From contig JAIORK010000028.1 in NCBI GenBank assembly GCA_021108215.1, forward strand, positions 1-64,000: a stretch of 64,000 nucleotides of DNA, written 5' to 3'. Shown in pieces: positions 41,843 through 60,937 of the stretch (position 1 is the first letter of the stretch; each line of letters begins with the position of its first letter). A program made the translations under genes and the position numbers. The stretch comes from a bacterium (GTDB taxonomy: Bacteria; Oederibacteriota; JAAXVQ01; JAUVAV01). A model generated the notes under the pieces. That model saw nothing but the letters and a program-made list of their open reading frames with translations, searched no databases and was not told the DNA's origin.

Positions 41843-42790
41843 TTACTGCATTATTGTATTGCCAACCCGGTGTTTTGTCCACAGCTTCTGTGCGCGCGCC
41901 CAATCCTTTTCAACTTGTTTAAGCAATGCCCCGGCACATACAAAAATCTGTTCCCCGCGCAGCCGGGCTAAAAATTCAACCGCCATATACCGTCCGTATA
42001 ATTTTCCCCGCCACCCGGGAATATGGACTTCAATGGTTTGCGGACCCCACTTATGAAATGTCGGTCGTTTCCCGATATGACATAAACCCGGCCGGGTAAT
42101 TCCGCCAAGACGGACCACAACCGCATAGGTTCCGGGTTGCGGAACAATTTCGTGCAATGTCTTGATATTGGCAGTTGGCAGCCCAATCTTACTGCCGCGG
42201 CCATCGCCATGAACCACCTTGCCGTGTAATGTATACGGCCAGCCAAGCAGCATCCGGGCTTTTTCCATCTCACCTGCCGCGACCATCCGGCGTAGTGCAC
42301 TTGAACTTACCACCCCTTGCCTGCGTCGTATTGGATTGACCTCCGTCACACCAAATCCCAGGGCTTTTCCCATTTTTTTCAGAAGTGCTGCATTACCGTG
42401 ACCATGCCTGCCAAAAATAAAATCCTTGCCAATCACAACATGCCGTACTTTTAACCACTTTACCAGAATACGTCGGATAAAATCTTCTGCTAAAATAGCC
42501 GCAAATGTCCGGGAAAAACGCACCAAAAAAACTTCATCGATTCCCAGCGTACGCATACGGGCAAGACATTGCTCCTGATTGGCCAGTCGCGGCGGACGTT
42601 TATCCGGTGCCAAGGTTTTGTGGGGATGTTCATAAAATGTCATCACCGCAGCCGGCACACCCAACTGTCGCGCTTTTTGTATAAGCGTCTTGAAAATGAC
42701 GGCATGGCCGATGTGCACACCATCAAAAACCCCCAGGGTCAACACCCGCCCCTTTCCGGGTTGGGACTTCAACCGCGTATGGCGCCTCAT
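41843..42790 (-). CDS. ribF: Bifunctional riboflavin kinase/FAD synthetase
   Basis: A 315-residue protein. The N-terminal FAD-synthetase half shows LGVFDGVHIGH, VMTFYEHP, VIGKDFIFG and the VSSSALRRMV segment; the C-terminal riboflavin-kinase half shows HGDGRGSKIGLPTAN and CHIGKRPTF. It makes FMN and FAD. The start overlaps the truB stop by 4 bases (ATGA), the last gene of the nusA operon. Many bacteria have rpsO after this block; here the transcript ends at a repeat element. Confidence 0.95.
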   Translation of the reverse strand: MRRHTRLKSQPGKGRVLTLGVFDGVHIGHAVIFKTLIQKARQLGVPAAVMTFYEHPHKTLAPDKRPPRLANQEQCLARMRTLGIDEVFLVRFSRTFAAILAEDFIRRILVKWLKVRHVVIGKDFIFGRHGHGNAALLKKMGKALGFGVTEVNPIRRRQGVVSSSALRRMVAAGEMEKARMLLGWPYTLHGKVVHGDGRGSKIGLPTANIKTLHEIVPQPGTYAVVVRLGGITRPGLCHIGKRPTFHKWGPQTIEVHIPGWRGKLYGRYMAVEFLARLRGEQIFVCAGALLKQVEKDWARAQKLWTKHRVGNTIMQ

Positions 42791-43689
42791 TTGTTTTCCT
42801 CATTGGCGGGATGTAAAACTTTGATCATTTTCAGTTGTCCCATTTTTTTTTGTGCCAGTGCCAAAATCCGGCCGGACACGTCCTGAAGACGAACAATTTC
42901 CTGGTCACCCGGTTCCAGGTTATCCGGGAGCGCGATGGCCGACCCGTGCTGGACCGCCTGCTGTACCTGCCCGGCAACCGTCCAGGGTGTCAGATGCCCC
43001 AGCACCTTTTCCGGTGCGATCAACCGGTCGCGCCATGTTGTCTGTTGAACCGCTGCTTCCAGCTGTTCCAAAGACATGGCCTGCTCGATTGAAAAACCGT
43101 TGCACAAAATCCGGGTTAAAGCATGCAAATGCGCACCACAACCCAGGCGTTGACCGATATCAAATGCCAGTGAACGGATATACGTTCCCCGCGAGCAACC
43201 GACTTCAATGCTGATATCCGGCGCATGATAATCGAGCAAATGAATCCAATGAATAACAATCGAACGCGGTTCCCGCACCACGACTTCGCCGCGCCGTGCA
43301 AGCTCATAAAGTCTTTTCCCCTTGTGATGCAGTGCTGAAACCATGGGTGGAATTTGCTGTTGGTCGCCTTGAAATGCTTCCAAAACGCTTACAATCGCTG
43401 CTGGATGTAAATTCGGTATGGGAAAGGTTTTTTCCACCTCGCCCCGGGCATCATAGGTCGATGTGATCTCACCAAGACGTACGGTTGCACGATAGGCTTT
43501 ATCAGACAAAAGATAGGGAAAGAGCCGGGTCGCCCGATGAAATGCCAGAACCAAAACACCTTCTGCCGCCGGATCAAGCGTCCCGGAGTGACCGACACGT
43601 TGCGCGCGGGTCAGCCGTTTTACGCAGTTAACAATCGTCGCCGAACTGGGCCCGGCCGGTTTAATGACCGGAAGAAACCCATCCGGCAT
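42787..43689 (-). CDS. truB: tRNA pseudouridine(55) synthase
   Basis: A 300-residue TruB. It contains FLPVIKPAGPSSATIV, the catalytic Asp in GHSGTLDPAAEGVL, the RVRL-like strand (RATVRLGEITSTYDARGE), SALHHKGKRLYELARRG and CSRGTYIRSLAFDIG. A C-terminal PUA-like tail follows. The ATG at 43689 lies 4 bases past the nrnA stop and fits the family N-terminus; the open frame extends 14 codons into nrnA. Confidence 0.95.
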   Translation of the reverse strand: MPDGFLPVIKPAGPSSATIVNCVKRLTRAQRVGHSGTLDPAAEGVLVLAFHRATRLFPYLLSDKAYRATVRLGEITSTYDARGEVEKTFPIPNLHPAAIVSVLEAFQGDQQQIPPMVSALHHKGKRLYELARRGEVVVREPRSIVIHWIHLLDYHAPDISIEVGCSRGTYIRSLAFDIGQRLGCGAHLHALTRILCNGFSIEQAMSLEQLEAAVQQTTWRDRLIAPEKVLGHLTPWTVAGQVQQAVQHGSAIALPDNLEPGDQEIVRLQDVSGRILALAQKKMGQLKMIKVLHPANEENK

Positions 43690-43693
43690 GCGA

Positions 43694-44701
43694 TTACCGT
43701 TGTCCGTTGACACGGGCCTCGACTTCAGCAATCACCTTATGCTCTGCACTTTCCAATGGACCGGGCATAAGCGCCCCGGCTGCGCGCTGATGACCGCCGC
43801 CGCCAAACGTAAGCGCAATCGTGGAAACATCCACAGCACCCCGCGAACGAAAAGACAGCTTCACCTTGCCTTCCTTGGTTTCCATAAAAAAAACCGCCAC
43901 CTCAACGCCATCCACTGCCCGAACATAGTTCACAAAATTCTCAGTCTGGTTGGCATTCGTCCCGGTTTCTTTGAGCATATCCTGGGTAATGGAAAACCAG
44001 CCTACATTTTTTTTAGCGTTGTACTTTACACCGCAAAGGCCGCGGGCCAGCAATGAAAGACTGGGAGCGGGAACACGCTCATAGAGTTGCTCATTCATGT
44101 AGCCGGGTTGAACTCCCAGCGCGATTAATTCCCCGATAATCCGATGGGTTTGCTGCGTGACACCTGCATACTTAAAATGACCGGTATCGGTCGCGATGGC
44201 GGTATAGAGTCCAATGGCCATACGCTGATTACGACTGCAATTCAATGCACAAATCAGGTCCCAGACTTGTTCCCCGGCCGCAGCTGCCGTCGGGTCAATC
44301 AGATTGACAGTCCCATAACGCGAATTGAAAACATGGTGATCAATATTGATAATATGATCCGCACCACTTGGCACCGCAATCACACCACCCGACCGTTTTT
44401 CATCCGGACACTCTAAAAAAATCGCCACTTCATGATGTTGGGTATGTTGCGATGTCACCTGGAATTGTTCCCGTTCCGGGAGGTAATGATACAATTCCGG
44501 TGTCGGATGGACATTGACGACAGTCACTTTTTTCCCCATGCCGGTCAATGCCATTAAAAGTGCTGATTCAGAACCCAGGCCGTCGCCATCCGGATTAAGA
44601 TGGGTGGTTAAAACAAAATCCTGACAAGCACCAATAATCTCAACCGCTTTTTCAAATTCCTGCTCATAGGCCGAATCACGTTCCAGCTTCTGTTCCACCA
44701 T
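43694..44701 (-). CDS. nrnA: DHH-family oligoribonuclease/pAp phosphatase
   Basis: A 335-residue NrnA-type phosphoesterase. The DHH motifs are visible: LTTHLNPDGDGLGSE, NIDHHVFN, ATDTGHFKYAG and the DHHA1 GGGGHQRAAG. NrnA degrades short RNAs and 3'-phosphoadenosine 5'-phosphate. It overlaps rbfA by 26 bases. AGGAGG lies 11 bases before the ATG. Location between rbfA and truB is common in Gram-positive and related bacteria. Confidence 0.92.
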   Translation of the reverse strand: MVEQKLERDSAYEQEFEKAVEIIGACQDFVLTTHLNPDGDGLGSESALLMALTGMGKKVTVVNVHPTPELYHYLPEREQFQVTSQHTQHHEVAIFLECPDEKRSGGVIAVPSGADHIINIDHHVFNSRYGTVNLIDPTAAAAGEQVWDLICALNCSRNQRMAIGLYTAIATDTGHFKYAGVTQQTHRIIGELIALGVQPGYMNEQLYERVPAPSLSLLARGLCGVKYNAKKNVGWFSITQDMLKETGTNANQTENFVNYVRAVDGVEVAVFFMETKEGKVKLSFRSRGAVDVSTIALTFGGGGHQRAAGALMPGPLESAEHKVIAEVEARVNGQR

Positions 44702-45056
44702 CGGGTGTCTTTCCTCCTTGGTTCAACTCGGTGATAATTCGTAAAACATTTTCCGTCTGTTCAGCCTGCTCATCCCTAAAAAAACTCAAGTTGGGAACAA
44801 CCCGCCATTTCAGCCGGTTTCCCAGTTCGCGTTTGATAAAACCGCTGGCATGCCGCAATGCCTCAAATGTTGATTCTTGTTTTTCACCACTGTCCAAGGT
44901 TCGGATAAATATTTTTGTGTCCCGCATATCCGGAGAAACGTCCACCCGGGTGATGGTCACCCACTCTAATCGCGGATCGGAAAGTTTGCGTCGGATAATA
45001 TCGGAAATTTCGCGAATAACTTGGGATGCTAATCGGTCTGTTCGTTTTGCTTTCAT
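44676..45056 (-). CDS. rbfA: Ribosome-binding factor A
   Basis: A 126-residue RbfA, needed for 30S maturation and 16S 5'-end processing. It has KRTDRLASQVIREISDII, SDPRLEWVTITRVDVSPDM and a KH-like core ending IKRELGNRLKWRVVPNLSFF. The ATG at 45056 is chosen by homology and a GGTGGG site 9 bases upstream; the open frame extends 20 codons further. It lies 122 bases after infB. Confidence 0.93.
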   Translation of the reverse strand: MKAKRTDRLASQVIREISDIIRRKLSDPRLEWVTITRVDVSPDMRDTKIFIRTLDSGEKQESTFEALRHASGFIKRELGNRLKWRVVPNLSFFRDEQAEQTENVLRIITELNQGGKTPDGGTEAGT

Positions 45057-45178
45057 AATTGTTTTCCCACCATCTTGTTCCCTTGCTTTGTGATACCGCC
45101 GATCTCCAGTCATCACATTTTAAAACGGCATAGCGCAATACTTTCTTTTAAAAACCCTTCCCATGGACTTCCGGATTT

Positions 45179-47344
45179 TTACAGTTTCTGTGCCACTTCC
45201 TCCAGCCTAAACGCTTCAATAATATCTCCGGTTTCGTACGTCTTGTAGCCGCTCACAGTAATACCGCATTCCTGACCGGTAGTCACTTCTTTAACATCGT
45301 CTTTAAACCGGCGCAAGGAGTCAATTTTGCCTTCGTGCACGATCTGGCCGCCCCGGACAACTTTCCCAACCGAGTTGCGGATAATTTTTCCGTTCAGCAC
45401 CTGTGAACCGGCAATGAACAATCCGGAAGAAAGTTTAATCGGCGTTTTCACTTCAGCCTTGCCGATCTCGATCTCATGAAAATGGGGTTCCAAAAGCCCT
45501 TCCATGGCCGACTTGACATCTTCGACCATCTCATAAATAACCGAATAAATAAGAACATCCACTGCTTCGCGTTTGGCAATCTGTTCAACGCCGCTTTCAG
45601 GTTTAATATGAAAACCCAGTACGATGGCGTTGCTGGCAGCTGCCAGCATCACATCGCTCTCGGAAAGGTTTCCCACAGCACAATGAATACAGGTCAATTT
45701 AACCTTTTCGGTTGAAAGCCCTTCCATGGAATTTTTCAAAACCTCTGCCGATCCCTGAACATCCGCTTTAATAATAATCTTTAGTTCTTTGATTGAGCCA
45801 TCGGCAATCCGTTCATTTAAATTATCCAACGTGACTTTCTGGGCGCGGCTGATATCCTGCTCACGTTTGATCATCTGACGCTTCATGGCAATCTGGCGCG
45901 CCGTCTTGTCACTCGCGATCACCTGAAAAACATCCCCGGCCTCAGGGACGCCGCCCAACCCAAGAATCTCTGCCGGCATGCTGGGGCCGGCACCCTTTAT
46001 CTGCTTGCCCCGTTCATTCATAAGCGCACGAACCTTGCCATATTGGACGCCGGTTACAATCGAATCACCGACATTCAATGTGCCGCGCTGAACCAACACG
46101 GTCGAAACCACACCGCGGCCACGATCAAGTTTTGCCTCAATCACCGTCCCCTTGGCAAGGGTCGTGCGATTGGCCTTTAATTCGAGCATCTCCGCTTCCA
46201 GCAAAAGCATATCAAGTAATTTTTCCAACCCCATTTTTTTCTTGGCTGAAATTTCTATACAGATGGTTTTGCCGCCCCATTCTTCCGGTAATAAATCGTA
46301 TTTGGTCAGTTCCTGCTTAATCCGATCCGGATCGACTCCCGGTTTGTCCATCTTGTTTATCGCGACAATAATCGGGACCTCGGCCGCCTTGGCATGATCA
46401 ATTGCCTCAATCGTCTGCGGTTGAATACCATCATCTGCCGCAACCACCAAGACCACCACGTCGGTTATCTGTGCACCGCGCGCACGCATGGTGGTAAACG
46501 CTTCGTGACCCGGTGTGTCCAAAAATGTCACATAACCTTTGGGCAGTTTTACCTGATAAGCACCGATATGCTGTGTGATGCCCCCGGCCTCACCATCCAT
46601 AACATTGGTTTCCCGAATTGCATCCAGCAGTGATGTTTTCCCATGATTGACATGCCCCATAATGGTAACCACCGGCGGACGGGATTGAAGGTCCTCAGGA
46701 CGATCAACGTCTTCCTGCTCGGAAAGCAACTCTTCTCCATAAAGTTCCTCGTATTCCGGAGAATGACCGAATTCAGACAGCAAAATTTCGATTGTATCTT
46801 CATCCAAGCGCTGGTTGATGGTTGCAAAAACCCCCAGCCCCATAAGCTTTTTAATGATTTCGGCCGGTCGTGACTGCAACCGGTTGGCAACATCCGATAC
46901 TGTCGCACCACTGGGTACCTTAATCGGTGTTAATTCTTTCTCTATTTTCTCAGGTTCCGGCTCAGGTTCCGGCTCGGGTTCCGGCTCAGGTTCCGGCTCG
47001 GGTTCCGGCTCAGGTTCCGGCTCAGGTTCCGGCTCAGGTTCCGGCTCAGGTTCCGGTTCCGGTTCTTCCGCCACCACAACCTGCTCACCGGGTCCGGACT
47101 GACTGTTATCCGTTTTGAATTCAAGCGCGTCTTTTTTTTCCTCTATCTTCATTCCCGGTACAATGGCATCATCGACAATCTCATCTTCACCCCAATGCCG
47201 TTTGATATACGCAACCGTCTCATCCTCCAAAACGCTCATATGACTTTTAACCTCAATGCGCATCGCCGTTAATTCACCCAATAATTCCTTGGAGGTTAAT
47301 TTCAGTTCCTTGGCCAATTCAAATACGCGTACTTTTTGACTCAT
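45179..47344 (-). CDS. infB: Translation initiation factor IF-2 with a Pro-Glu tract
   Basis: A 721-residue IF-2. Residues 1-45 form an N-terminal IF2_N domain (VRVFELAKELKLTSKELL); a second one (VPSGATVSDVANRL) precedes the GTPase domain with GHVNHGKTSLLDAI, DTPGHEAF and NKMDKP. Between them, about residues 93-133, lies an uninterrupted run of about 20 Pro-Glu pairs encoded by a 12-bp tandem repeat (46957-47065). The tract is probably an extended, acidic linker. The ATG overlaps the nusA stop (ATGA). Confidence 0.96.
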   Translation of the reverse strand: MSQKVRVFELAKELKLTSKELLGELTAMRIEVKSHMSVLEDETVAYIKRHWGEDEIVDDAIVPGMKIEEKKDALEFKTDNSQSGPGEQVVVAEEPEPEPEPEPEPEPEPEPEPEPEPEPEPEPEPEPEPEPEKIEKELTPIKVPSGATVSDVANRLQSRPAEIIKKLMGLGVFATINQRLDEDTIEILLSEFGHSPEYEELYGEELLSEQEDVDRPEDLQSRPPVVTIMGHVNHGKTSLLDAIRETNVMDGEAGGITQHIGAYQVKLPKGYVTFLDTPGHEAFTTMRARGAQITDVVVLVVAADDGIQPQTIEAIDHAKAAEVPIIVAINKMDKPGVDPDRIKQELTKYDLLPEEWGGKTICIEISAKKKMGLEKLLDMLLLEAEMLELKANRTTLAKGTVIEAKLDRGRGVVSTVLVQRGTLNVGDSIVTGVQYGKVRALMNERGKQIKGAGPSMPAEILGLGGVPEAGDVFQVIASDKTARQIAMKRQMIKREQDISRAQKVTLDNLNERIADGSIKELKIIIKADVQGSAEVLKNSMEGLSTEKVKLTCIHCAVGNLSESDVMLAAASNAIVLGFHIKPESGVEQIAKREAVDVLIYSVIYEMVEDVKSAMEGLLEPHFHEIEIGKAEVKTPIKLSSGLFIAGSQVLNGKIIRNSVGKVVRGGQIVHEGKIDSLRRFKDDVKEVTTGQECGITVSGYKTYETGDIIEAFRLEEVAQKL

Positions 47345-48804
47345 TCTTCATCACCTTCTTCCGCCTCGGCAGAACCAGCCTCTGCATTTTTATCCTCATC
47401 AGCAGTCTTCGCGGCACTGTCCAACCCTGCAAATAAATCGCCTACCGCAATCTCTTTTTTGGGTTCCGATTGAGATTGGACGGTACTCTCACCTTCAATT
47501 CGCGAAAAAAGATCAGCTGCAGTTTGTTCTTCTTTGACCTCGCTGACTTTGGGTAAATAGTTGGAAAGACTTTCCATAATTTTCTCAGCAGTTTTCAAAC
47601 CAATCCCCGGAATTTCCGTCAATTGTTGGGCCGTAACCTCCCGGAACTGCACCACCGTTTCATAACCGGCCTCTTTAAGGCGTTTGGCCATTGCCCCGGT
47701 AATCCCCGGAACTTTTTCCAATGCCGGTGCCGTGGCCAAAAATGCCTCTTCAGCCTTTTTCCGCATTGCTTCCTGATTTTTCGAAGAACTCATCACATCA
47801 ATTTTCCAGCCCGCCAATTTAGATGCCAGACGAACATTCTGACCGCTTTTCCCGATTGCCAAGGCCAATTGATCATCATTTACAATAACCGTGGCACAAC
47901 TTTTCTCCGGACAAAGCTCCACTGCTGCAATTTTTGCCGGCTGCAACGCGGAATTAAGCAATGTCTCTATATTTTCGGAATAAAGGATTACGTCAATTTT
48001 TTCACCATGAATTTCGCGGACAATAGACTGGATGCGCGATCCTTTAACACCCACACAAGCTCCGACAGGATCAACATTTTTATCCTTGGAACAAACTGCA
48101 ACTTTGGACCTGGCGCCAGGCTCCCGTGAAATCGCCTTGATCTCAACCACGCCATCCGCAACTTCAGGAACTTCCATCTCAAAAAGTTTACGGATCATGG
48201 TTGGATGCGAGCGGGAAACCACCACCTGGGGTGAGCGGCTGGTTCTACGGACATCCACAATAAAACTTTTTATCCGGTCCCCATTTTTATAAATTTCACG
48301 CGGTACCTGCTCGCGTGCGGGCAGCACAGCTTCCGTATCTCCCAGATCAATAATAATATTTTTATGTTCCTGCCGCAGTACCGAACCATTAATCAGTTCA
48401 CCTTGGCGTTTTTTAAAATCTTCATAAATGGCATTACGTTCCGCTTCCCGGACCCGCTGCAACATAACCTGTTTGGCGGTCTGGGCGGCAATACGTCCAA
48501 AATCCGAAGGATGCATCGTAATCTCGATAACATCGCCCTCAACCGCGTCTGATTTCACTTTATGGGCGTCTTCCAAGGAAATTTCGTTCCACGCTTCCTG
48601 AACCTCTAAAACCACCTGCTTTTTAAGGTGCGCCATCAGATCGCCGGTCGTGTTATCAAACACGACCCGGATATCCTGCGCTGTTCCATGATTTTTCCGG
48701 GAAACCGATATCAATGCCGATTCGATTGCTTCGATCAGCACTGAACGGTCAATTTTTCTGGCCCGTTCGATCTGCCGGATAACGTCTATTAATTGTACAT
48801 TCAT
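47341..48804 (-). CDS. nusA: Transcription elongation/termination factor NusA
   Basis: A 487-residue NusA: N-terminal polymerase-binding domain, S1 domain (GELINGSVLRQEHKNIIIDLG), two KH domains (VGACVGVKGSRIQSIVREI, LAIGKSGQNVRLASKLAGW), and a C-terminal helix-hairpin-helix repeat (VPGITGAMAKRL, IPGIGLKTAEKI), ending in an acidic tail. The ATG at 48804 has GAGGG 8 bases upstream; the open frame extends 56 codons through the hairpin leader and is not coding there. rimP, which usually precedes nusA, is absent from this locus. Confidence 0.95.
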   Translation of the reverse strand: MNVQLIDVIRQIERARKIDRSVLIEAIESALISVSRKNHGTAQDIRVVFDNTTGDLMAHLKKQVVLEVQEAWNEISLEDAHKVKSDAVEGDVIEITMHPSDFGRIAAQTAKQVMLQRVREAERNAIYEDFKKRQGELINGSVLRQEHKNIIIDLGDTEAVLPAREQVPREIYKNGDRIKSFIVDVRRTSRSPQVVVSRSHPTMIRKLFEMEVPEVADGVVEIKAISREPGARSKVAVCSKDKNVDPVGACVGVKGSRIQSIVREIHGEKIDVILYSENIETLLNSALQPAKIAAVELCPEKSCATVIVNDDQLALAIGKSGQNVRLASKLAGWKIDVMSSSKNQEAMRKKAEEAFLATAPALEKVPGITGAMAKRLKEAGYETVVQFREVTAQQLTEIPGIGLKTAEKIMESLSNYLPKVSEVKEEQTAADLFSRIEGESTVQSQSEPKKEIAVGDLFAGLDSAAKTADEDKNAEAGSAEAEEGDEE

Positions 48805-48890
48805 GCTACAGTCCCTCACTATTTTCAAACTGGTCCCACTGCCGGTAAGCTGTCTAACCGCCCTGCAATGAAAAAAACACAGTATAAAAT

Positions 48891-48923
48891 AAAAAGAGTG
48901 GGCATAAAACCCCCACTCTTTTT
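48891..48923 (-). terminator. Perfect terminator-like hairpin in the nusA leader
   Basis: AAAAAGAGTGGG (48891-48902) pairs perfectly with CCCACTCTTTTT (48912-48923). On the minus strand the stem ends in TTTTT then ATTTT. It begins about 20 bases after the predicted start of nusA transcription and ends 87 bases before the nusA ATG, the position expected of an attenuator. On the plus strand nothing is available to terminate. Confidence 0.7.
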
Positions 48924-48948
48924 GGCAAAGTGGTTTTCTAAAGCTCAT

Positions 48949-48977
48949 AGAATAGGACTGTTTGAATATCAAGTCAA
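48949..48977 (-). promoter_or_regulatory. Predicted sigma-70 promoter of the nusA-infB operon
   Basis: TTGACT (48972-48977) and TATTCT (48949-48954) on the minus strand, exactly 17 bases apart. The predicted transcript starts near 48942, just before the hairpin at 48891-48923. Confidence 0.65.
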
Positions 48978-51539: not shown

Positions 51540-54500
51540 TTAGAATAGTGTGGTCTGGTCGGTCTTGGGCAGTACTTCCAGGCAGCCGTGTTGGGTCATG
51601 ATCTCAACTACATTTTTGTTGGCACCGGTCCGTTTGCCCAATTCTTCAATAGAACGAAAGGGACGAAGTTCCCGTTCCTCGGCAATACGCAGTGCACAGG
51701 TCAGACCCAGTCCTGCCAAAGAAATCAAGGGTGGTAACAGCGTCTGCTGCGGGCGCAATTGAAAACGCTGCGGATCCGACTCGGAAAGCGAGATCGGTTG
51801 AAAAGTAATCCCCCGGGCATACGCTTCCCGTACCACTTCGAGCACCGTCAGATTATTTTTCTCCTTGGCCGTCATGCTCTCCAGGGCTTTTAATTCTTTA
51901 ATGGTCTCAGCCACCTTCTTGGCGCCACCGTGTACTACCAGCTCAGCATCAAAAAAATCGGCATTCAAAGAAAAATAATTGGTATAAAATGCGGCCGGAA
52001 AGTGCACTTTAAAATAAGCGATGCGAAAAGCCATAATGCAATACGCTACCGCATGGGCTTTGGGAAACATATATTTTATTTTCTTACAAGAGTCAACATA
52101 CCATTTGGGAACGCTGTTCGCCTGCATGCTTATTTCCTGATCAGCTGCGACCCCTTTGCCTTTGCGAACAGATTCCATAATCTGAAAAGCAAGTGCCGGC
52201 TCCACGCCCTTGCTGATTAAATAATTCATAATATCATCCCGCGCTGAAATAACCGTGGAAAGTGTGGCTGTTTTCTCCTTAATCAAGTCCGCGGCATTGT
52301 TGAGCCAGACATCCGTCCCATGGGAAAGTCCTGAGATACGCACCAGTTCGGAAAAAACCGTAGGTTTGGTGGCTTCCAGCATCTGACGAACAAATTCGGT
52401 CCCGAATTCGGGAATCCCCAAACTCCCTATCGGGGTTCCAATCTGATCCGCTGTCACGTTCAAGGATTCCAAACTCGAAAAAATTTTCAGGGTGTCCAAA
52501 TCATCCAGGGGTATGGAACGCACATCCACACCGGTCAAATCACCCAACCGGCGCAAAGAGGTCGGATCGTCATGCCCGAGAATATCGAGTTTAAGCAATG
52601 CGTCATGAATGGCATGGTAATCCAAATGGGTTGTGGTAATCTCTGATTTACGGTCATCCGCCGGGCGCTGCACAGGTGTAAAATCATAAATCTCCATATC
52701 CGCCGGAACAATCATAATGCCACCCGGATGCTGGCCCGTGGTCTTTTTCACCCCGGCACACCCGCGTGTCAGCCGGTTGACCTCAGCTTCACGAATCACT
52801 AATTGGTGCTCTTCCAGATATTTTTTAACAAATCCATATGCAATCCTGTCCGCCACCGTAGAAATCGTCCCGGCACGAAAAATATGGTCCTTATCAAAAA
52901 TTTCTTCCAGCGACTTATGCGCAATCGACTGGTACTCTCCGGAAAAATTCAAATCAATATCCGGCAGTTTGTTCCCTTTAAAACCCATGAAGACCTCAAA
53001 AGGAATATCGAAACCGTCTTTTTCCATCACCGTTCCGCACTCGGGACATTCCTTTTCCTCCAGGTCAGCGCCAATCCGGTTTTTTTCTCCCTGCTCAAAA
53101 TGGCGGCACTTGGAACAAAGGTAATGACCGGGCAACGGATTCACTTCTGTAATCCCCAGCATCGTGGCAGTCAGCGATGACCCTACCGAACCGCGCGAGC
53201 CCACCAAATAGCCGTCTTTGATGGAACGCAGAACCAACTTCCTCGCAATGAGGAACAACGAAGCAAAATGATTGTCATTGATTGCCTTGATCTCCCGCGC
53301 CAGCCGTTTGGCAACCATTTCCGGCAGCGGGTCGCCGTAACGTTCCCGGGCCTGTTCAAAAGCAATCGTCTTGAGCTCCTTCTCGGCATCGGGTAATTTA
53401 GGCGGATAAAAATTCTGTTTGAGCGGCTTGATATCCTGGACCTGTTCGGCAATCAATACTGGATTCCCCACCACGGTTTCAAATGCCTCTGCCGAACCAA
53501 GATACGCAAACTCCTCCAGCATCTCATCGGTTGATTTAAAAAAGAGTGGTGCTTGCAAGGTTGCATCGTCATATCCCATCCCAGACTGGAGGATGGAACG
53601 AAAAACTTCATCGCCGGGTTCGAGAAAGTGTATATCCCCGGTTGCCACCACCGGGATATTTAATTTTTTCCCGAGCTGATAAATTTTTCGGTTCAATTCA
53701 AGCAATGCCGCTTCATCCGCCACCTTGTTGTTGCGGATCAAAAAAGCATTGTTTCCCCGGGGCATGATTTCTAAATAATCATATTTTTTGGCAGTGGCTT
53801 CCAGCTCCTCTGCCGGAACATTTTCCAGCAGTTTACGAAATACTTCACCTTGTTCGCAGGCTGATCCCAAGAGCAATCCATCGCGACTATTAAACAAAAC
53901 CGAACGCGGGATACGCGGATGGCGGTAAAAATATTTTAAATGAGCCTCGGAAATCATACGATAAAGGTTGCGCACACCTTGGGGTTCGGAAATAAGAATA
54001 CTAATATGATACGGCCGCGGCGGCTTGCGCTTGCCCACCTGCTCAAGCCAGGCATCCTCGATCAGATACCCTTCCATGCCGTAGATTATCTTGATACCAT
54101 ATTTAGCGCCGGCAGACATGGCTTCAGGAAACGCCTGCACCACCCCGTGATCTGTGATCGCAATCGCCTTGTGTCCAAAATCCGCCGCCCGCTTGATCAT
54201 CTGAGAAACACCCACCATAGCATCCATGGCGCTCATTTGCGTGTGGGCGTGCAATTCCACCCGTTTGACCTCAGCCTCGTCTACACGCTGCGGCTTTTTG
54301 CCAATCGCAATATCCTTCACAAACAAACACAAATCCTGGGAATATTTATCATTCTGTACAGAACCGCGCAGCCGCACATAGGCACCCGCCTTGATCTCCG
54401 GCGCCAACTGCTTGCCGGCATCCACAAACAACCGGGTATTCATGCTGCCGGTTTTATCATACACATCCATCAAAATCAATTGACGCCCGGTACGCAGTGT

Positions 54501-55286
54501 TTTGCATTCAAAGGTAATAAGCTCACCTTCAAATACCGCGTGAGGTTCTTCTTCCTTGATCCCGGCAATTGGAATGGGCTGGGCGGCAATCTTGCGGCCA
54601 TACACCACGCGCCATGTCGCGCGTTTGGCAGGATCACCCTTGGCGCCGGCATCACTTTGCATTTCATCTCCGGCTTCAGCCTGGACACGCTCCAATTCCT
54701 CGCGAATACGCTTCTCGTACAGGGCTTCACGCAGCTTAACTTCTTCGCCGAACTCGCCGATCTCAAAACGCACAGCCACCTCACACTGCAATCGTTCTGT
54801 CAGCAGCCGGCCGAGAATTTTGTCCCCTGTCTGACGCTTGAGTGCAATCAGGGTCATCTCATTGGGCACGGCAATCCTGACCTTGTTCTCGCTCCCGTTG
54901 GAAAAACGCACCAATGATAGGTACGCGCCCGCCATGTTGACCTGACGCGAAAAAACACTGATCAAATCATTCCAGTGTTCATTAAAATAGTCTTGGGGAT
55001 TGATGATTTTCGGAGTGTAGTGTACATCCAGAATCATTTGGGGAGATTCCGCCGGGGACATACACTTCACCAATTCACAGCGCAGTTGATCCACCGCATC
55101 TTTATTCAACCGCTGAGCGGCATTAAATTCAATTGTAATCATTGCCGGTTTGGGACTCACCAAAATGGCGCGGGGTGTCATACTCAACAAAGATGTTTTT
55201 GTGGAATCGTCCAGGTCCAGCTGATTGATGATTTCCTTCAGTTTGGCTGAAAGCCCTTGAGGTTCTACGCGGATTTCCTGATTCAT
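51540..55286 (-). CDS. polC: PolC-type DNA polymerase III alpha subunit lacking the exonuclease domain
   Basis: A 1248-residue PolC: an N-terminal domain and OB fold, PHP domain (VELHAHTQMSAMD, AIAITDHGVVQAF), palm with VGSRGSVGSSLTATMLGIT, zinc Cys set (CSKC, CPECG), the catalytic PDIDLNFSGEYQ and GQHPGGIM. In Firmicute PolC a DEDD 3'-5' exonuclease of about 175 residues is inserted in the PHP domain after YGMEGYL; here YGMEGYLIEDAW passes almost directly into the rest of the PHP domain (PYHISILI). Length is about 190 residues below the Bacillus enzyme. ATG 55286 has GGAG 6 bases upstream and a strong promoter further up. Confidence 0.94.
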   Translation of the reverse strand: MNQEIRVEPQGLSAKLKEIINQLDLDDSTKTSLLSMTPRAILVSPKPAMITIEFNAAQRLNKDAVDQLRCELVKCMSPAESPQMILDVHYTPKIINPQDYFNEHWNDLISVFSRQVNMAGAYLSLVRFSNGSENKVRIAVPNEMTLIALKRQTGDKILGRLLTERLQCEVAVRFEIGEFGEEVKLREALYEKRIREELERVQAEAGDEMQSDAGAKGDPAKRATWRVVYGRKIAAQPIPIAGIKEEEPHAVFEGELITFECKTLRTGRQLILMDVYDKTGSMNTRLFVDAGKQLAPEIKAGAYVRLRGSVQNDKYSQDLCLFVKDIAIGKKPQRVDEAEVKRVELHAHTQMSAMDAMVGVSQMIKRAADFGHKAIAITDHGVVQAFPEAMSAGAKYGIKIIYGMEGYLIEDAWLEQVGKRKPPRPYHISILISEPQGVRNLYRMISEAHLKYFYRHPRIPRSVLFNSRDGLLLGSACEQGEVFRKLLENVPAEELEATAKKYDYLEIMPRGNNAFLIRNNKVADEAALLELNRKIYQLGKKLNIPVVATGDIHFLEPGDEVFRSILQSGMGYDDATLQAPLFFKSTDEMLEEFAYLGSAEAFETVVGNPVLIAEQVQDIKPLKQNFYPPKLPDAEKELKTIAFEQARERYGDPLPEMVAKRLAREIKAINDNHFASLFLIARKLVLRSIKDGYLVGSRGSVGSSLTATMLGITEVNPLPGHYLCSKCRHFEQGEKNRIGADLEEKECPECGTVMEKDGFDIPFEVFMGFKGNKLPDIDLNFSGEYQSIAHKSLEEIFDKDHIFRAGTISTVADRIAYGFVKKYLEEHQLVIREAEVNRLTRGCAGVKKTTGQHPGGIMIVPADMEIYDFTPVQRPADDRKSEITTTHLDYHAIHDALLKLDILGHDDPTSLRRLGDLTGVDVRSIPLDDLDTLKIFSSLESLNVTADQIGTPIGSLGIPEFGTEFVRQMLEATKPTVFSELVRISGLSHGTDVWLNNAADLIKEKTATLSTVISARDDIMNYLISKGVEPALAFQIMESVRKGKGVAADQEISMQANSVPKWYVDSCKKIKYMFPKAHAVAYCIMAFRIAYFKVHFPAAFYTNYFSLNADFFDAELVVHGGAKKVAETIKELKALESMTAKEKNNLTVLEVVREAYARGITFQPISLSESDPQRFQLRPQQTLLPPLISLAGLGLTCALRIAEERELRPFRSIEELGKRTGANKNVVEIMTQHGCLEVLPKTDQTTLF

Positions 55287-55321
55287 GCATTGCTCCAACA
55301 AACAAAGTACCAAGCGGCGAA

Positions 55322-55484: not shown

Positions 55485-56996
55485 ATGCCGAATACACATA
55501 ACTACCGTGTCTTTATTCCCCTGATGATTAGCCTGCTCCTTGCCGGCCTGACCGCTGTTGAAGCGGCCGGTACCGGCGTCGGCACAACCAATACCCAAGA
55601 TGCCTTTAGTTCAGCCTCACGGCGCTATGTCCATATCGCTGCCAATCAATACTGGATCACATTTCATAACGGTGTTTCACCGGTGCTGGCCGTAAGCAGC
55701 GACGGTTCCTCCTGGACGGAAGTAAACACAGGCAATAGTGACAACCACCTCTTCACCACGCCCGACCCGGTACCGAGTGATTGGGGTGCGCTTTTTTCCG
55801 GGCGGACACTCTACTTGGCCGGTGCAACCTCCTCGATGGCCTATTTTGAAAAATATCAGATCAACGCTGCCGGCGTTGTTGCCAAGGATGAAACCCGCAC
55901 CGAATCGGTCGGCACCCATGGAAGCAATAACGAGACCAACCTCTCCCTGACTGCCGGCGGCTTGGTACGGGTCTTTTGGCGTTACGATCCGCGGATTTAC
56001 CTCTTTGCAGGCAATGCCGGCGAGACGATCTGGTCTGATCAATACAAATCAGGCTATATCACACAGGTTAACTCTTTTTTTCCCTTTGCGCTGCCCCTGG
56101 GAACAGCTGATGACCCCAATGAAAATTTAGTGATGATCGCTTTGGATGATGTCAGCGAACACCAAATCCGCAGCATGCCCTATACTGACGCAACCAATAC
56201 CTGGGGCAGCGCTGAACTGGTTGCCGATGATCTAAACCTGGTTGGAAGCCAACCGTATTGCCGGCAAGTTTCAGCAGTCAAAACCGACGATGGCCGGAGT
56301 CACTTGGTCTACATTACAAATAACGGATTAATTGTACATAAAATCCGCAGCAGCAGTGTCGGGGGAACATGGACCACCCCATCTTCAAACATCACGGGAA
56401 TCGACACCCATACCCGCCTCTCGCTCTCCACCGACGGCCTTGCTTTATGGCTTTTCTATGATAAAAATATGCAGCAGCTTTTTATGCGGCACTGGATCGC
56501 AAATACCTGGGGTGATGAAACGGTTGTGAAAAGCAGTACCACTTCTTTGCAAGGTGCCATCACCAGTTCTGAGCATGTGGTCAACGACCAGATCGGTCTT
56601 GCCTGGACCGAAGGCCTCGCTGTACCGTATGTTGTTGAATTTGCCAAGGTGAACATAGGCACTGCCACCCCGACACCAACACCGGCCGCAACCCTCACAC
56701 CGCTGCCAACTGAGACGACCCTGCCGGCATCCGGCCTGAGCATTACCAATAAAATCGTCCGTGCCTCACGCGGTGAGATGCCGGAATTCACTGTGCATCT
56801 TGAAAAAGCGGGACATGTACGCATCCGAATCTATAATTTAAACGGCAAACAGCTCGCTGCTTTGGCCAACCGCGACTACCCGGCCGGCACGCACCGTCTG
56901 ACCTGGAATATCACGGGGGTGGGTTCAGGCACCTATTGGATTTTATTTGAAACCCCTGCAACGAAAACAAAGGAAAAAATTGTGATTACGCGGTAA
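55485..56996 (+). CDS. Secreted protein with Thr-Pro linker and FlgD-like C-terminal domain
   Basis: A 503-residue protein with a signal peptide (LMISLLLAGLTAVEAA). Residues about 40-380 contain repeated short strands with Trp/Asn/Gly-rich turns (SSDGSSWTEV, SVGGTWTTPSS), suggesting a beta-propeller or sialidase-like fold, but catalytic motifs are not evident. A Thr-Pro-rich linker (TATPTPTPAATLTPL) follows, then a FlgD-Ig/T9SS-like C-terminal domain (VRIRIYNLNGKQLA, YPAGTHRLTWN, SGTYWILFET). Such domains serve for sorting or surface attachment in several phyla. GGAGG lies 7 bases before the ATG. It opens a plus-strand envelope block. Confidence 0.82.
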   Translation: MPNTHNYRVFIPLMISLLLAGLTAVEAAGTGVGTTNTQDAFSSASRRYVHIAANQYWITFHNGVSPVLAVSSDGSSWTEVNTGNSDNHLFTTPDPVPSDWGALFSGRTLYLAGATSSMAYFEKYQINAAGVVAKDETRTESVGTHGSNNETNLSLTAGGLVRVFWRYDPRIYLFAGNAGETIWSDQYKSGYITQVNSFFPFALPLGTADDPNENLVMIALDDVSEHQIRSMPYTDATNTWGSAELVADDLNLVGSQPYCRQVSAVKTDDGRSHLVYITNNGLIVHKIRSSSVGGTWTTPSSNITGIDTHTRLSLSTDGLALWLFYDKNMQQLFMRHWIANTWGDETVVKSSTTSLQGAITSSEHVVNDQIGLAWTEGLAVPYVVEFAKVNIGTATPTPTPAATLTPLPTETTLPASGLSITNKIVRASRGEMPEFTVHLEKAGHVRIRIYNLNGKQLAALANRDYPAGTHRLTWNITGVGSGTYWILFETPATKTKEKIVITR

Positions 56997-57014
56997 TCCT
57001 TTTCTGCTCTGCCT

Positions 57015-59030
57015 ATGCTCTTTTCACAGTTACTAAATAATTCAATGCGGATATTCTCCAGCACAAGCCGGAGTCCTTTCCTTTTACTGTTGCTTCTCTT
57101 GCTGCTCCCGCTTCCAGGTTTTTCCCTGACCGGGCAGCTCCTGGATGTATCACCCGATGCCCGGACCAATGCACTCGGTTCCGCTGCAAGCGCCGATGCC
57201 AATGGATCTGCCGCTGTTTTTCACAATCCTGCCGGACTCATGACACTCACCACCCTGGAGCTGGCTGCTTCTTTCCGCAACGAATTAGAGGATGTCAATT
57301 CCGGAAGCATGATCGTGGCCATGCCTTTTATGCAAGCCGGTGTTCTCGGCCTGAGTATTTTCAGCCTCAATGCAGGCATACTGGACCTGCCGGATACTGA
57401 GAATGATCCTATCGCAGAACTTGATTTTATCGTTTCAACCACCTACGCAACCACGCTGGACCCTTCCCTGGGAATACCCTTCCCGCTCCACCTGGGTGTC
57501 ACGGCAAAATATTTCCACTCCACACTGGTCGGCGACTACACCGGCCAGGCGGTTGTGGGTGATATTGGCATGATGACGGCTTTGTTCGCGTCCCGGTTGG
57601 GTCTGGGTGTCACCCTAAAAAATTTCGGATCGCGTATCACCTATGATCTTGAATCCGAGGCGCTTCCCACCAGCATTGTCTGTGGTGCCGCCTGGCATGG
57701 CAGCCTGACACCTGATTTTTCCTATCTGGCGCTGGCAGACTATGCCCAACCACTGGAAGAAAAACCATTGATCCTGACCGGTATCGAGGTGCAATACCGC
57801 GATTTCATCAACCTCCGCGCAGGTTACCGTTTTTTACATGACACTGCCAACCTCTCGGCAGGTTTCGGTATCCAGCTGCGCCCTTACACATTTGACTATA
57901 CTTTTTTAAGCGGCACGCTGGCTGCCAAACACCTTATCACGGTCCGGTATACATGGATCCCCGTTAAAGTCATCCCGTCTACCCACGCCCAACAGGGTAT
58001 TGATTATTTTAAACAAGGAAAACTGACCGAGGCCAGGCAAGCTTGGAAAACCGCCTTGCAAAAAAATCCGGATGACCCTTTTGCAAAAAAATATGTCCGG
58101 GAATTCGAAACTTTACAGACAGACTGGATCAACCAACAGGCCGACCGGGCGGAACAGGCCTTTGCCAACGAGCATTTTTTAGAATCCTGGGAACTTTGGC
58201 AAGTGCTTGCCAAAAAAGATCCCAATCACTTCCGTGTCCGAACCGGTATCCAAAAACAAAAAAACGCGGCAGACCGCCAGGTAAGCACAGCACGCACCTG
58301 GTTCAACCGCCAAGCCTGGAACAATACACTTTCCGCTGTTTCCCATGCATTAAAAATCATCCCGCGCCATCCACCGGCACTGGCAATGCAGGAGCAGGTA
58401 AACACTGTCATGCAGCGGAACCGCCGGAACAAAAACCGTTTCTTCAATCAAATTGCCGCTAAAATAAAAAAACTCAGCCTGCAAGGCAAACCCCGGGATG
58501 CACTGGCGATCGCCAAGCGGACACTGACAACTTCACCCAAAAATTCTGTTTTGCTCAAAGCCAAAGCGCGCATCCCGGAATGGTCACATCAGCACGCATT
58601 GAAACTCAAATCGCAGCGTCACTATCAGGCTGCCATGCTTCTATGGAAAACACTTCTAAAAATCTCGCCGAATTTCATACCGGCAAAACATCAGTTGAAA
58701 AAAACCGCTGATTTTTTCCAAACACATATTCTGGCAGGACAACAAAAAGCCGAGCAGGCATTCTCCCGAAAAAACTATGTGATTGCCATCACTGCCTGGG
58801 AAAAAGTCTATGCGCTTGATCCGGAATCAGATGTCAAAAAAAACCTGCTGATAACTTATGAGGCACAAGGAATTTTGTATTATCGGGACGACAACCTGGA
58901 TGCAGCACTCCAGCTCTGGAAAAAAGCCCTTCACCTGAACCCGGCCAATTCCATTCTGATAAAAAACATCAAGCGGGCTCAAAATAAAAAACAGTTTATC
59001 AAAAAGCTCGGTTGGGAGACTTCGCCATGA
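57015..59030 (+). CDS. PorV/PorQ-type outer-membrane protein fused to TPR repeats
   Basis: A 671-residue protein with a strongly hydrophobic signal segment (Leu-rich, residues about 22-32). Residues about 40-330 match the PorV/PorQ (UPF0164-type) beta-barrel family: ARTNALGSAASADANGSAAVFHNPAGLM at the barrel start and LRAGYRFLHDTANLSAGFGIQ near the end. The C-terminal half carries TPR-like repeats (AQQGIDYFKQGKLTEARQAW, LYYRDDNLDAALQLWKKAL). PorV-type proteins cooperate with type IX-like secretion; the TPR half could be a periplasmic interaction platform. It overlaps the next gene by 4 bases. Confidence 0.85.
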   Translation: MLFSQLLNNSMRIFSSTSRSPFLLLLLLLLLPLPGFSLTGQLLDVSPDARTNALGSAASADANGSAAVFHNPAGLMTLTTLELAASFRNELEDVNSGSMIVAMPFMQAGVLGLSIFSLNAGILDLPDTENDPIAELDFIVSTTYATTLDPSLGIPFPLHLGVTAKYFHSTLVGDYTGQAVVGDIGMMTALFASRLGLGVTLKNFGSRITYDLESEALPTSIVCGAAWHGSLTPDFSYLALADYAQPLEEKPLILTGIEVQYRDFINLRAGYRFLHDTANLSAGFGIQLRPYTFDYTFLSGTLAAKHLITVRYTWIPVKVIPSTHAQQGIDYFKQGKLTEARQAWKTALQKNPDDPFAKKYVREFETLQTDWINQQADRAEQAFANEHFLESWELWQVLAKKDPNHFRVRTGIQKQKNAADRQVSTARTWFNRQAWNNTLSAVSHALKIIPRHPPALAMQEQVNTVMQRNRRNKNRFFNQIAAKIKKLSLQGKPRDALAIAKRTLTTSPKNSVLLKAKARIPEWSHQHALKLKSQRHYQAAMLLWKTLLKISPNFIPAKHQLKKTADFFQTHILAGQQKAEQAFSRKNYVIAITAWEKVYALDPESDVKKNLLITYEAQGILYYRDDNLDAALQLWKKALHLNPANSILIKNIKRAQNKKQFIKKLGWETSP

Positions 59031-60937
59031 AACAAAAATTAGGCATCCTGCTTTCCTATGCCACGATCCTCTTCATCACACTGCCGCCGGCAAGTGCCGG
59101 TCAACAGCACTATACTGCCGCCGAGGGTCTGCCCCATCCCATGATCAGCGCACTGGCTGTTCAGGAAGGACGGGTCTGGGCCGGAAGCAACCAGGGGCTG
59201 GCGGTCAAAACGCTGCAAGCAAAATCCTTTACCTCCTTTTCCGGACAAACGCTGGGAAAAGTGATTGCAATTATACCGCAGCACAACAAGGCCCTCATTG
59301 CCTGCAATCAGGGTATTTTTCGCGCAGACGCAGCCAAGCGCTCGCTGGCACCGCTGACATTACCTCCCCATGTAACCCCGGACCAGATCACCTGCTTAAA
59401 ACAGTCTCCCGGCAAAACCCTCTGGTTGGGAACACGACAGGGACTTTTCACCTCTTCAGAAACCCGAATCCAGTGGCAGCCGTTGGCGCTGCCAGAAACC
59501 GCCGGCATGGTACACCACATTGCTTTTTCCGGTTCCCTGGTTTTTGTCAGCACAGAAAATACCTCACTGTATGTCTATGCTACGGTACTCAAACAATGGA
59601 TCACGGCAATACCGCTGGAAACCGGAGCCTTTATCACCGCACTATCGGTTTACGGTACCACACTTTATTTAGGCACCCATGGCAAAGGACTGTATCAGTA
59701 CGACTGGCAGCAGCGCCAATTGACCAAAATTTTCCCGCAAAAGGACCGCAATGAATTCATCCATGCTGCCATCACCAATGGTGAAAATGCCTGGTTCGGG
59801 ACATTTAATCGTCTGCTCAAAGTCAATCAGGCCATGGGTACATTCCAAGAGCGATCGCTACCGTTCCCCAGTCCCAGCAGCATCAATTGTTTTGCCCTTT
59901 CCACAACTGATCTCTATATCGGCACCGAATTCGGCATCCTGGTACAACCTCTGAAAAAACCCCGGCTTGCGCTGCAAGTTGACCGCAGTATCTGTTTTGA
60001 CCCGAAACGCACCCTCAAACTCTCCGGAACCGCTTCCGAATCATCCCGCAAAACGCTGGTTCTGGATTTTTCCAACCGGACACTTGCCACAGTCTGGTTC
60101 AAAGAATCACTTTCACTTTCATCACCAGCCAACCGGGCGGACTTTACCGGCCAATGGAACATCACCGGATTGCCGGATAAAAACAATTTTTATCTTCTGC
60201 GCGTACGCGCCACCGACCCGCAGGGCAAAAAAAACAGCACCGTCCTGCCCATACTCATCGCAACCGAGAAACCCGCCATCACACTCAACCGCACGAACAC
60301 GAAACATCCCGAAGGCTTGCGTTCCTTCAGCGGTAAATTCAACACCTGGTTTGTAGACACTCTCCAGGTAACACCCGGCGACATGCCGGCAGAAATCGAG
60401 ATACAAAAAAACGCCTTCCGTTCCACCGTGACACTCAATCCCGGCAGCAACACTGTCCGCGCAGTCCTGAGCGATTGGTTCGGGCGCAGCGCCAAAGACC
60501 AAATTACAATTCAAGTCGCCCAAAAATCTTCCGAGAATGCTGTAATCGTAAAAGCCGGCAAACAAAAAGGCGAGGAAATCATTGTCCTTAGCGAGGCGCT
60601 GATCTTTGATTCAGGACAGGCGGAAATCACACCCTCCGGCCTGGAAGCACTGACGAAAGTGGCGGATTATATGCTGCGCGACGATGCCATCACCGCCCGA
60701 ATCATCGGACATACTGACAACCGGCCAATCGCAAATCGTAAATTCGCGAACAACCGGGCACTCTCCGAGGCCCGCGCCCACACGGTATTTAACTATCTAT
60801 CAAAAAAGAAAGCCCTTTCACCCGACCGCTTCACCATCATCGGCAAAGGCGCCGCAGACCCCATCGCAGATAACCAGACCCAGTCCGGGCGCAAGAAAAA
60901 CAGACGAGTGGAAATTGTGCTGAAGAAAGTGGAGTGA
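59027..60937 (+). CDS. Exported beta-propeller protein with C-terminal OmpA domain
   Basis: A 636-residue protein with a signal peptide (KLGILLSYATILFITLPPASA). Residues about 25-320 hold seven or so short repeats like GRVWAGSNQGLAV, KTLWLGTRQGLFT and TTLYLGTHGKGLYQY, the two-component-regulator-type propeller pattern. A beta-rich middle follows. The last 130 residues are an OmpA-like domain (IFDSGQAEITPSGLEAL, GHTDNRPI, NRALSEARA, GKGAADPIADN) that binds peptidoglycan. The start at 59027 has GGGAG 8 bases upstream and gives an ATGA overlap. Together with the previous gene it suggests a cell-envelope complex. Confidence 0.88.
   Translation: MKQKLGILLSYATILFITLPPASAGQQHYTAAEGLPHPMISALAVQEGRVWAGSNQGLAVKTLQAKSFTSFSGQTLGKVIAIIPQHNKALIACNQGIFRADAAKRSLAPLTLPPHVTPDQITCLKQSPGKTLWLGTRQGLFTSSETRIQWQPLALPETAGMVHHIAFSGSLVFVSTENTSLYVYATVLKQWITAIPLETGAFITALSVYGTTLYLGTHGKGLYQYDWQQRQLTKIFPQKDRNEFIHAAITNGENAWFGTFNRLLKVNQAMGTFQERSLPFPSPSSINCFALSTTDLYIGTEFGILVQPLKKPRLALQVDRSICFDPKRTLKLSGTASESSRKTLVLDFSNRTLATVWFKESLSLSSPANRADFTGQWNITGLPDKNNFYLLRVRATDPQGKKNSTVLPILIATEKPAITLNRTNTKHPEGLRSFSGKFNTWFVDTLQVTPGDMPAEIEIQKNAFRSTVTLNPGSNTVRAVLSDWFGRSAKDQITIQVAQKSSENAVIVKAGKQKGEEIIVLSEALIFDSGQAEITPSGLEALTKVADYMLRDDAITARIIGHTDNRPIANRKFANNRALSEARAHTVFNYLSKKKALSPDRFTIIGKGAADPIADNQTQSGRKKNRRVEIVLKKVE

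Follow-up and report, generated by a model that had tools for sequence, protein, structure and literature searches.

How replication errors are removed in a bacterium whose PolC lacks the inserted DEDD exonuclease is the question raised by the window analyzed here, a 64,000-nucleotide stretch (contig C28) of a genome of 3.56 Mb (67 contigs, 97% complete). The window encodes a PolC-type DNA polymerase III alpha subunit from whose PHP domain the hallmark DEDD insert is absent. The first-pass annotation had offered two options for this protein, dependence on a separate proofreader or proofreading by the PHP domain, and the second is the better fit, with all nine metal ligands present and exonuclease activity predicted from them. 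The observations are plain: the exonuclease (Exo) is absent, the PHP ligands and the fold are intact, and the order to which the genome belongs has no protein of the RNase_T or DnaQ family. The reading preferred here is that the protein is the true PolC replicase of a lineage without the DEDD insert, and that the Zn-dependent PHP site of such an exo-less PolC probably proofreads. Errors would then be removed by PolC's own PHP domain, acting as a trinuclear-zinc 3'-5' exonuclease like that of M. tuberculosis DnaE1, and the companion DnaE1 might contribute a second editing site, its own PHP domain. On this proposal, the PolC site would be catalytically active and edit primers at the replication fork, and PolC would carry out bulk replication in this bacterium. 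PHP exonuclease activity was demonstrated for M. tuberculosis DnaE1 (PMC5636811), and is predicted for the PolC of the window.

A PolC Without the Inserted Exonuclease

The polC open reading frame (51540-55313, minus strand) encodes 1257 aa if a TTG start is used; the ATG at residue 10 yields 1248 aa. Its features are as follows:

51540..55286, minus strand: polC, exo-less PolC-type DNA polymerase III alpha, 1248 aa when started at the ATG (NCBIfam, structure match)
54669..54977, minus strand: N-terminal NII-like domain, residues 113-215 (PF11490, E 5e-4, a weak match under the Pfam cut-off)
54309..54530, minus strand: OB-fold domain at residues 262-335, preceding PHP in the usual PolC order (PF01336)
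53628..54257, minus strand: PHP domain with the full set of nine metal ligands (Pfam; ligands invariant in the phylum alignment)
54015..54062, minus strand: 16-residue loop IEDAWLEQVGKRKPPR at the site of the ~200-residue DEDD exonuclease in other PolCs (sequence, alignment)
52152..53378, minus strand: polymerase core, Pol3-alpha and finger (Pfam, phylum alignment)
51564..51812, minus strand: C-terminal HhH domain, residues 1168-1250 (PF14579)
51543..51557, minus strand: QTTLF at the C-terminus, a candidate beta-clamp binding motif (sequence compared with the consensus)

The window protein is a bona fide PolC: it scores well above the cut-offs of two NCBIfam models (TIGR01405, polC_Gram_pos, 1298.4 bits against 1043.45; NF001688, 1441.7 against 873) and resembles Geobacillus PolC in sequence. 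Pfam places the PHP, Pol3-alpha, finger, HhH and OB domains above cut-off and NII below, with OB before PHP, followed by Pol3 and HhH. The polymerase motifs are intact, as had been claimed from the sequence: D785 and D787 (in PDIDLNF) and D910 are conserved in the phylum alignment and are, judging by the motif, presumably the catalytic aspartates. The C-terminal QTTLF may be compared with the clamp-binding consensus QL[S/D]LF (PMC3919608). Apart from the missing insert, every PolC characteristic tested was found, and the absence of Exo does not bar membership, because exo-less variants are known (PMC3919608). For annotators, this means that the Exo insert should not be taken as defining PolC.

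The loop IEDAWLEQVGKRKPPR sits between YGMEGYL (residues 411-417) and PYHISIL (434-440), an interval that corresponds to about 196-217 residues in aligned exo-bearing PolCs. The first-pass annotation had called the protein a PolC lacking the inserted 3'-5' exonuclease, and Pfam, alignment and sequence agree; its spacing of "about 15" residues was right as to the short gap, the exact count being 16. A DEDD exonuclease elsewhere in the 1248 residues, which would have contradicted that description, was looked for, and Pfam finds no exonuclease domain anywhere in the protein, even at E≤1. An assembly accident does not explain the short gap, since it is common to all readable PolCs of the phylum and to many from Bacillota.

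The PHP Metal Site and the Structure Model

Inspection of the PHP metal ligands, together with a domain search and a structure model, had been proposed as a check. The nine ligands were defined from M. tuberculosis DnaE1 (PMC5636811) and mapped onto PolC, where all nine are present (H355, H357, D364, H389, E414, H436, C486, D560, and H562; ligand string HHDHEHCDH). The AlphaFold model of residues 232-1257 has a mean pLDDT of 92.8 and the fold of the Geobacillus PolC core: the best PDB matches are 3f2b and 3f2c (TM 0.92; 3f2b over 1028 columns), with 49% identity to that core in the model match. The crystals behind both entries reportedly came from an Exo-deleted, active construct. The Geobacillus structure lacks both NTD and Exo (PMC3919608). 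The window PolC shares with the PolCs of Bacillus, Geobacillus, and Staphylococcus the TIGR01405 family, the fold, and the polC-nusA neighborhood, but lacks their DEDD exonuclease of ~200 residues. With M. tuberculosis DnaE1 it shares the nine-ligand, trinuclear-Zn type of PHP site at an equivalent domain position (PMC5636811), but it differs in having the PolC rather than the DnaE domain order and only ~19% identity in the model match.

Among 171 readable PolCs, a sample picked by similarity to the window PolC and therefore biased toward exo-less forms, the PHP site is intact in 93 exo-less proteins and degenerate in none, while 68 exo-bearing proteins have an intact and 10 a degenerate site. 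The nine ligands are retained in 28/28 readable PolCs of the window's phylum and in 65/65 readable exo-less PolCs of Bacillota, and degenerate sites are limited to exo-bearing PolCs (10/78). Nine of these 10 are Bacillaceae proteins with an Asp-to-Asn exchange at the position equivalent to D560, so that the sampled Bacillaceae PolCs have lost one ligand where the window PolC has nine; in M. tuberculosis DnaE1, D226N abolishes exonuclease activity (PMC5636811). Because of the biased sampling and the dominance of Bacillaceae, these counts fit the hypothesis but do not amount to testing it statistically, and the contrast between exo-less and exo-bearing PolCs is phylogenetically thin, as nine of the 10 degenerate cases come from one clade. 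Nor is ligand retention by itself proof of proofreading, since 68 of the 78 exo-bearing PolCs are intact as well.

Search for a Separate Proofreader

A stand-alone dnaQ-like gene, the search for which had likewise been suggested, was found neither in the genome itself nor in the other seven genomes of its order: none has a member of the dnaQ family TIGR00573, and RNase_T (PF00929) lacks any match in the genome at a threshold as loose as E≤10, the eight genomes of the order being likewise devoid of matches. The single match to the TIGR00573 profile (E 0.22 over 33 residues) is regarded as chance. The absence of RNase_T/DnaQ exonucleases from the eight genomes therefore makes a canonical separate proofreader for the window PolC unlikely, as far as profile searches can tell, and the first-pass option of a separate proofreader finds no support for this type. 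Lack of RNase_T is not unique to the order, since nine of 30 Bacillota genomes with an exo-less PolC are also without it, the other 21 having some RNase_T protein.

Two further candidates were rejected. Profile A3, built from the aligned DEDD proteins of the phylum, matched in all eight genomes, but the matches covered BRCT positions alone and the frame matched in the window's own genome is the DNA ligase LigA; the PF01612 match in the same genome is RNase D-like. The DEDD-superfamily proteins found in this genome are the RNase D-like protein and a 168-aa RNase_H_2 protein. Sister families that lack PolC (f4 and f5; L034-L042) carry a stand-alone DEDD exonuclease, and for the one that was scored (L035) the best NCBIfam match is to the PolC model, within its Exo segment (E 6e-57).

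The Companion DnaE1 and Families with a Broken DnaE Site

PolC is accompanied by a DnaE1 in this genome: the 1173-aa protein on contig C36 is full-length and above the NF005298 and NF004226 cut-offs. Its PHP motif, HHDHEHCDH, is intact, as are the DnaE PHP ligands in all eight genomes of the order. In three other families of the phylum, f8, f9, and f10, the DnaE site is broken (HHSTEHGHF in f8, HHEKEHCDH in f9, and, for example, HHEKEPGDR among seven f10 sequences), and the PolCs retain all nine ligands:

L144, L145, L150, L233-L235, L237-L239 (f8-f10): DnaE with broken PHP, exo-less intact-PHP PolC alongside, DnaQ not recognizable

RNase_T proteins occur once per genome in f9 and f10 and are absent from f8. 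One from each of f9 and f10 was scored and came out as an oligoribonuclease, and the remaining copies in f10 look similar; the idea that the RNase_T gene near dnaE in f10 encodes a DnaQ next to a degenerate DnaE was rejected on this score. Because the DnaE PHP site is broken and RNase_T is an oligoribonuclease or absent, the PolC PHP site is the sole replicative proofreader of f8-f10 recognizable by sequence, the RNase_T family having been surveyed. In the PolC plus DnaE1 sets described earlier the partner DnaE is not broken in this way (PMC3919608). An exo-less phylum whose sister families differ in DnaE PHP integrity offers a natural contrast for studying proofreading by the PolC PHP site, and this is the most useful outcome of the analysis. 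A bolder scenario, held only tentatively and at somewhat less than even chances, is that the PolC of one phylum dropped DEDD proofreading, and that in f8-f10 its PHP site is the only editor left, serving both PolC and a DnaE with a decayed site. If true, PolC-based PHP proofreading would be the only replicative editing activity of a cell. No report of biochemistry on an exo-less PolC was found in the literature, and the division of replication and proofreading in bacteria with PolC and DnaE1 had seen no experimental test as of PMC3919608.

Alternative Explanations

The main replicase and editor could instead be DnaE1, whose own PHP site is intact, with PolC as an accessory polymerase that needs no proofreading. 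A main role for DnaE1 was suggested as a possibility for Clostridia by Timinskas et al. (PMC3919608); the DnaE1 of the window's genome is full-length and has the intact PHP motif, and three families of the phylum (f3-f5) have DnaE only. The state of f8-f10, with the DnaE site destroyed and the PolC site conserved, is the opposite of what this explanation predicts, and PolC retains its clamp-like C-terminal motif and every polymerase motif, so that we consider it unlikely. Proofreading in trans by a non-canonical DEDD exonuclease is judged improbable, too. The candidate is the stand-alone 168-aa RNase_H_2 protein, encoded on another contig (C49, L262:1462-1968, minus strand), which matches PF13482 (E 2.8e-32), has acidic motifs of the D-E and N-D type, and weakly resembles the exonuclease MrfB in sequence (E 2.4e-6). 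Its gene is not adjacent to polC or dnaE, adjoining those of an AAA-type ATPase and a phosphatase-like protein, and MrfB is a DNA-repair exonuclease and is not known as a subunit of the replisome, which counts against this role.

The PHP domain might also be kept for stability or for another hydrolysis such as that of pyrophosphate, with fidelity left to mismatch repair and the selection of nucleotides. Both a structural role (PMC3666897) and a pyrophosphatase role (PMC4822814) have been put forward for the PHP domain of E. coli. Yet E. coli PHP domains fold despite lost ligands, and the strict retention of all nine here, among them the Asp that corresponds to M. tuberculosis D226, points to catalysis; this explanation appears very improbable. 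Proofreading by the PolC PHP site is the reading retained.

Distribution and Evolution

PolC occurs in 36 of 45 genomes of the window's phylum, and DnaE-type matches in most. All 28 of the PolCs readable through PHP are exo-less, and two more are partial. PolC was described as confined to Firmicutes, Fusobacteria, Tenericutes, and Thermotogae (PMC3919608), and no report of PolC in Candidatus Goldiibacteriota, probably the phylum in question, was found in the literature searched. The rarity of exo-less PolCs implied at first was overstated: they made up 6% of PolCs in 2013, in Clostridia, Negativicutes, and one Thermotogae copy (Timinskas et al., 2013, PMC3919608), and they are common in the phylum of Moorella, with at least about 112 by frame length among the matches listed (399 genomes, 283 with PolC; a hand count, part of it checked by sequence). 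The kind is already known; what is new is its phylum-wide occurrence outside Firmicutes. The window PolC resembles the exo-less PolCs of Clostridia and Negativicutes (PMC3919608) in its OB-PHP-Pol3-HhH order, intact PHP, and DnaE1 partner, but here this type characterizes an entire phylum outside Firmicutes, and the window's organism is not a Firmicute. Clostridia mostly have three intact proofreaders (2026 survey, PMC12926913).

In the phylogeny, which had also been proposed, the PolCs of the phylum form one clade (SH support 99-100). A tree that unites all exo-less PolCs in a single clade is rejected (AU p 2.9e-5), and Exo presence or absence switches at least eight times. When the tree, which comprises no Thermotogae or Fusobacteria sequences and has a weak root, is rooted with DnaE, whose branch is very long, the exo-bearing sequences fall at the base and the phylum's clade stands beside exo-less Syntrophomonadaceae (support 83). 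Since the insertion site is constant, repeated loss of Exo is the simpler reading on this weakly rooted tree.

Genomic Neighborhood

Downstream of polC lies a gene cluster:

41843..48972, minus strand: nusA-infB-rbfA-nrnA(DHH)-truB-ribF, on the same strand as polC

Between polC and this cluster, murB and an MBL-fold hydrolase gene lie on the opposite strand. The proximity of polC to nusA-infB recurs in f10, in a second genome of the window's family, and in Bacillota. The DHH protein of the cluster is NrnA-like and may replace oligoribonuclease. IF-2 (45179-47344, minus strand) contains an extended stretch of (PE)n dipeptides around residues 88-153. The region upstream of polC (55485-60937) encodes Por_Secre_tail-like, TPR, and OmpA/two-component-propeller proteins on the plus strand, opposite to polC.
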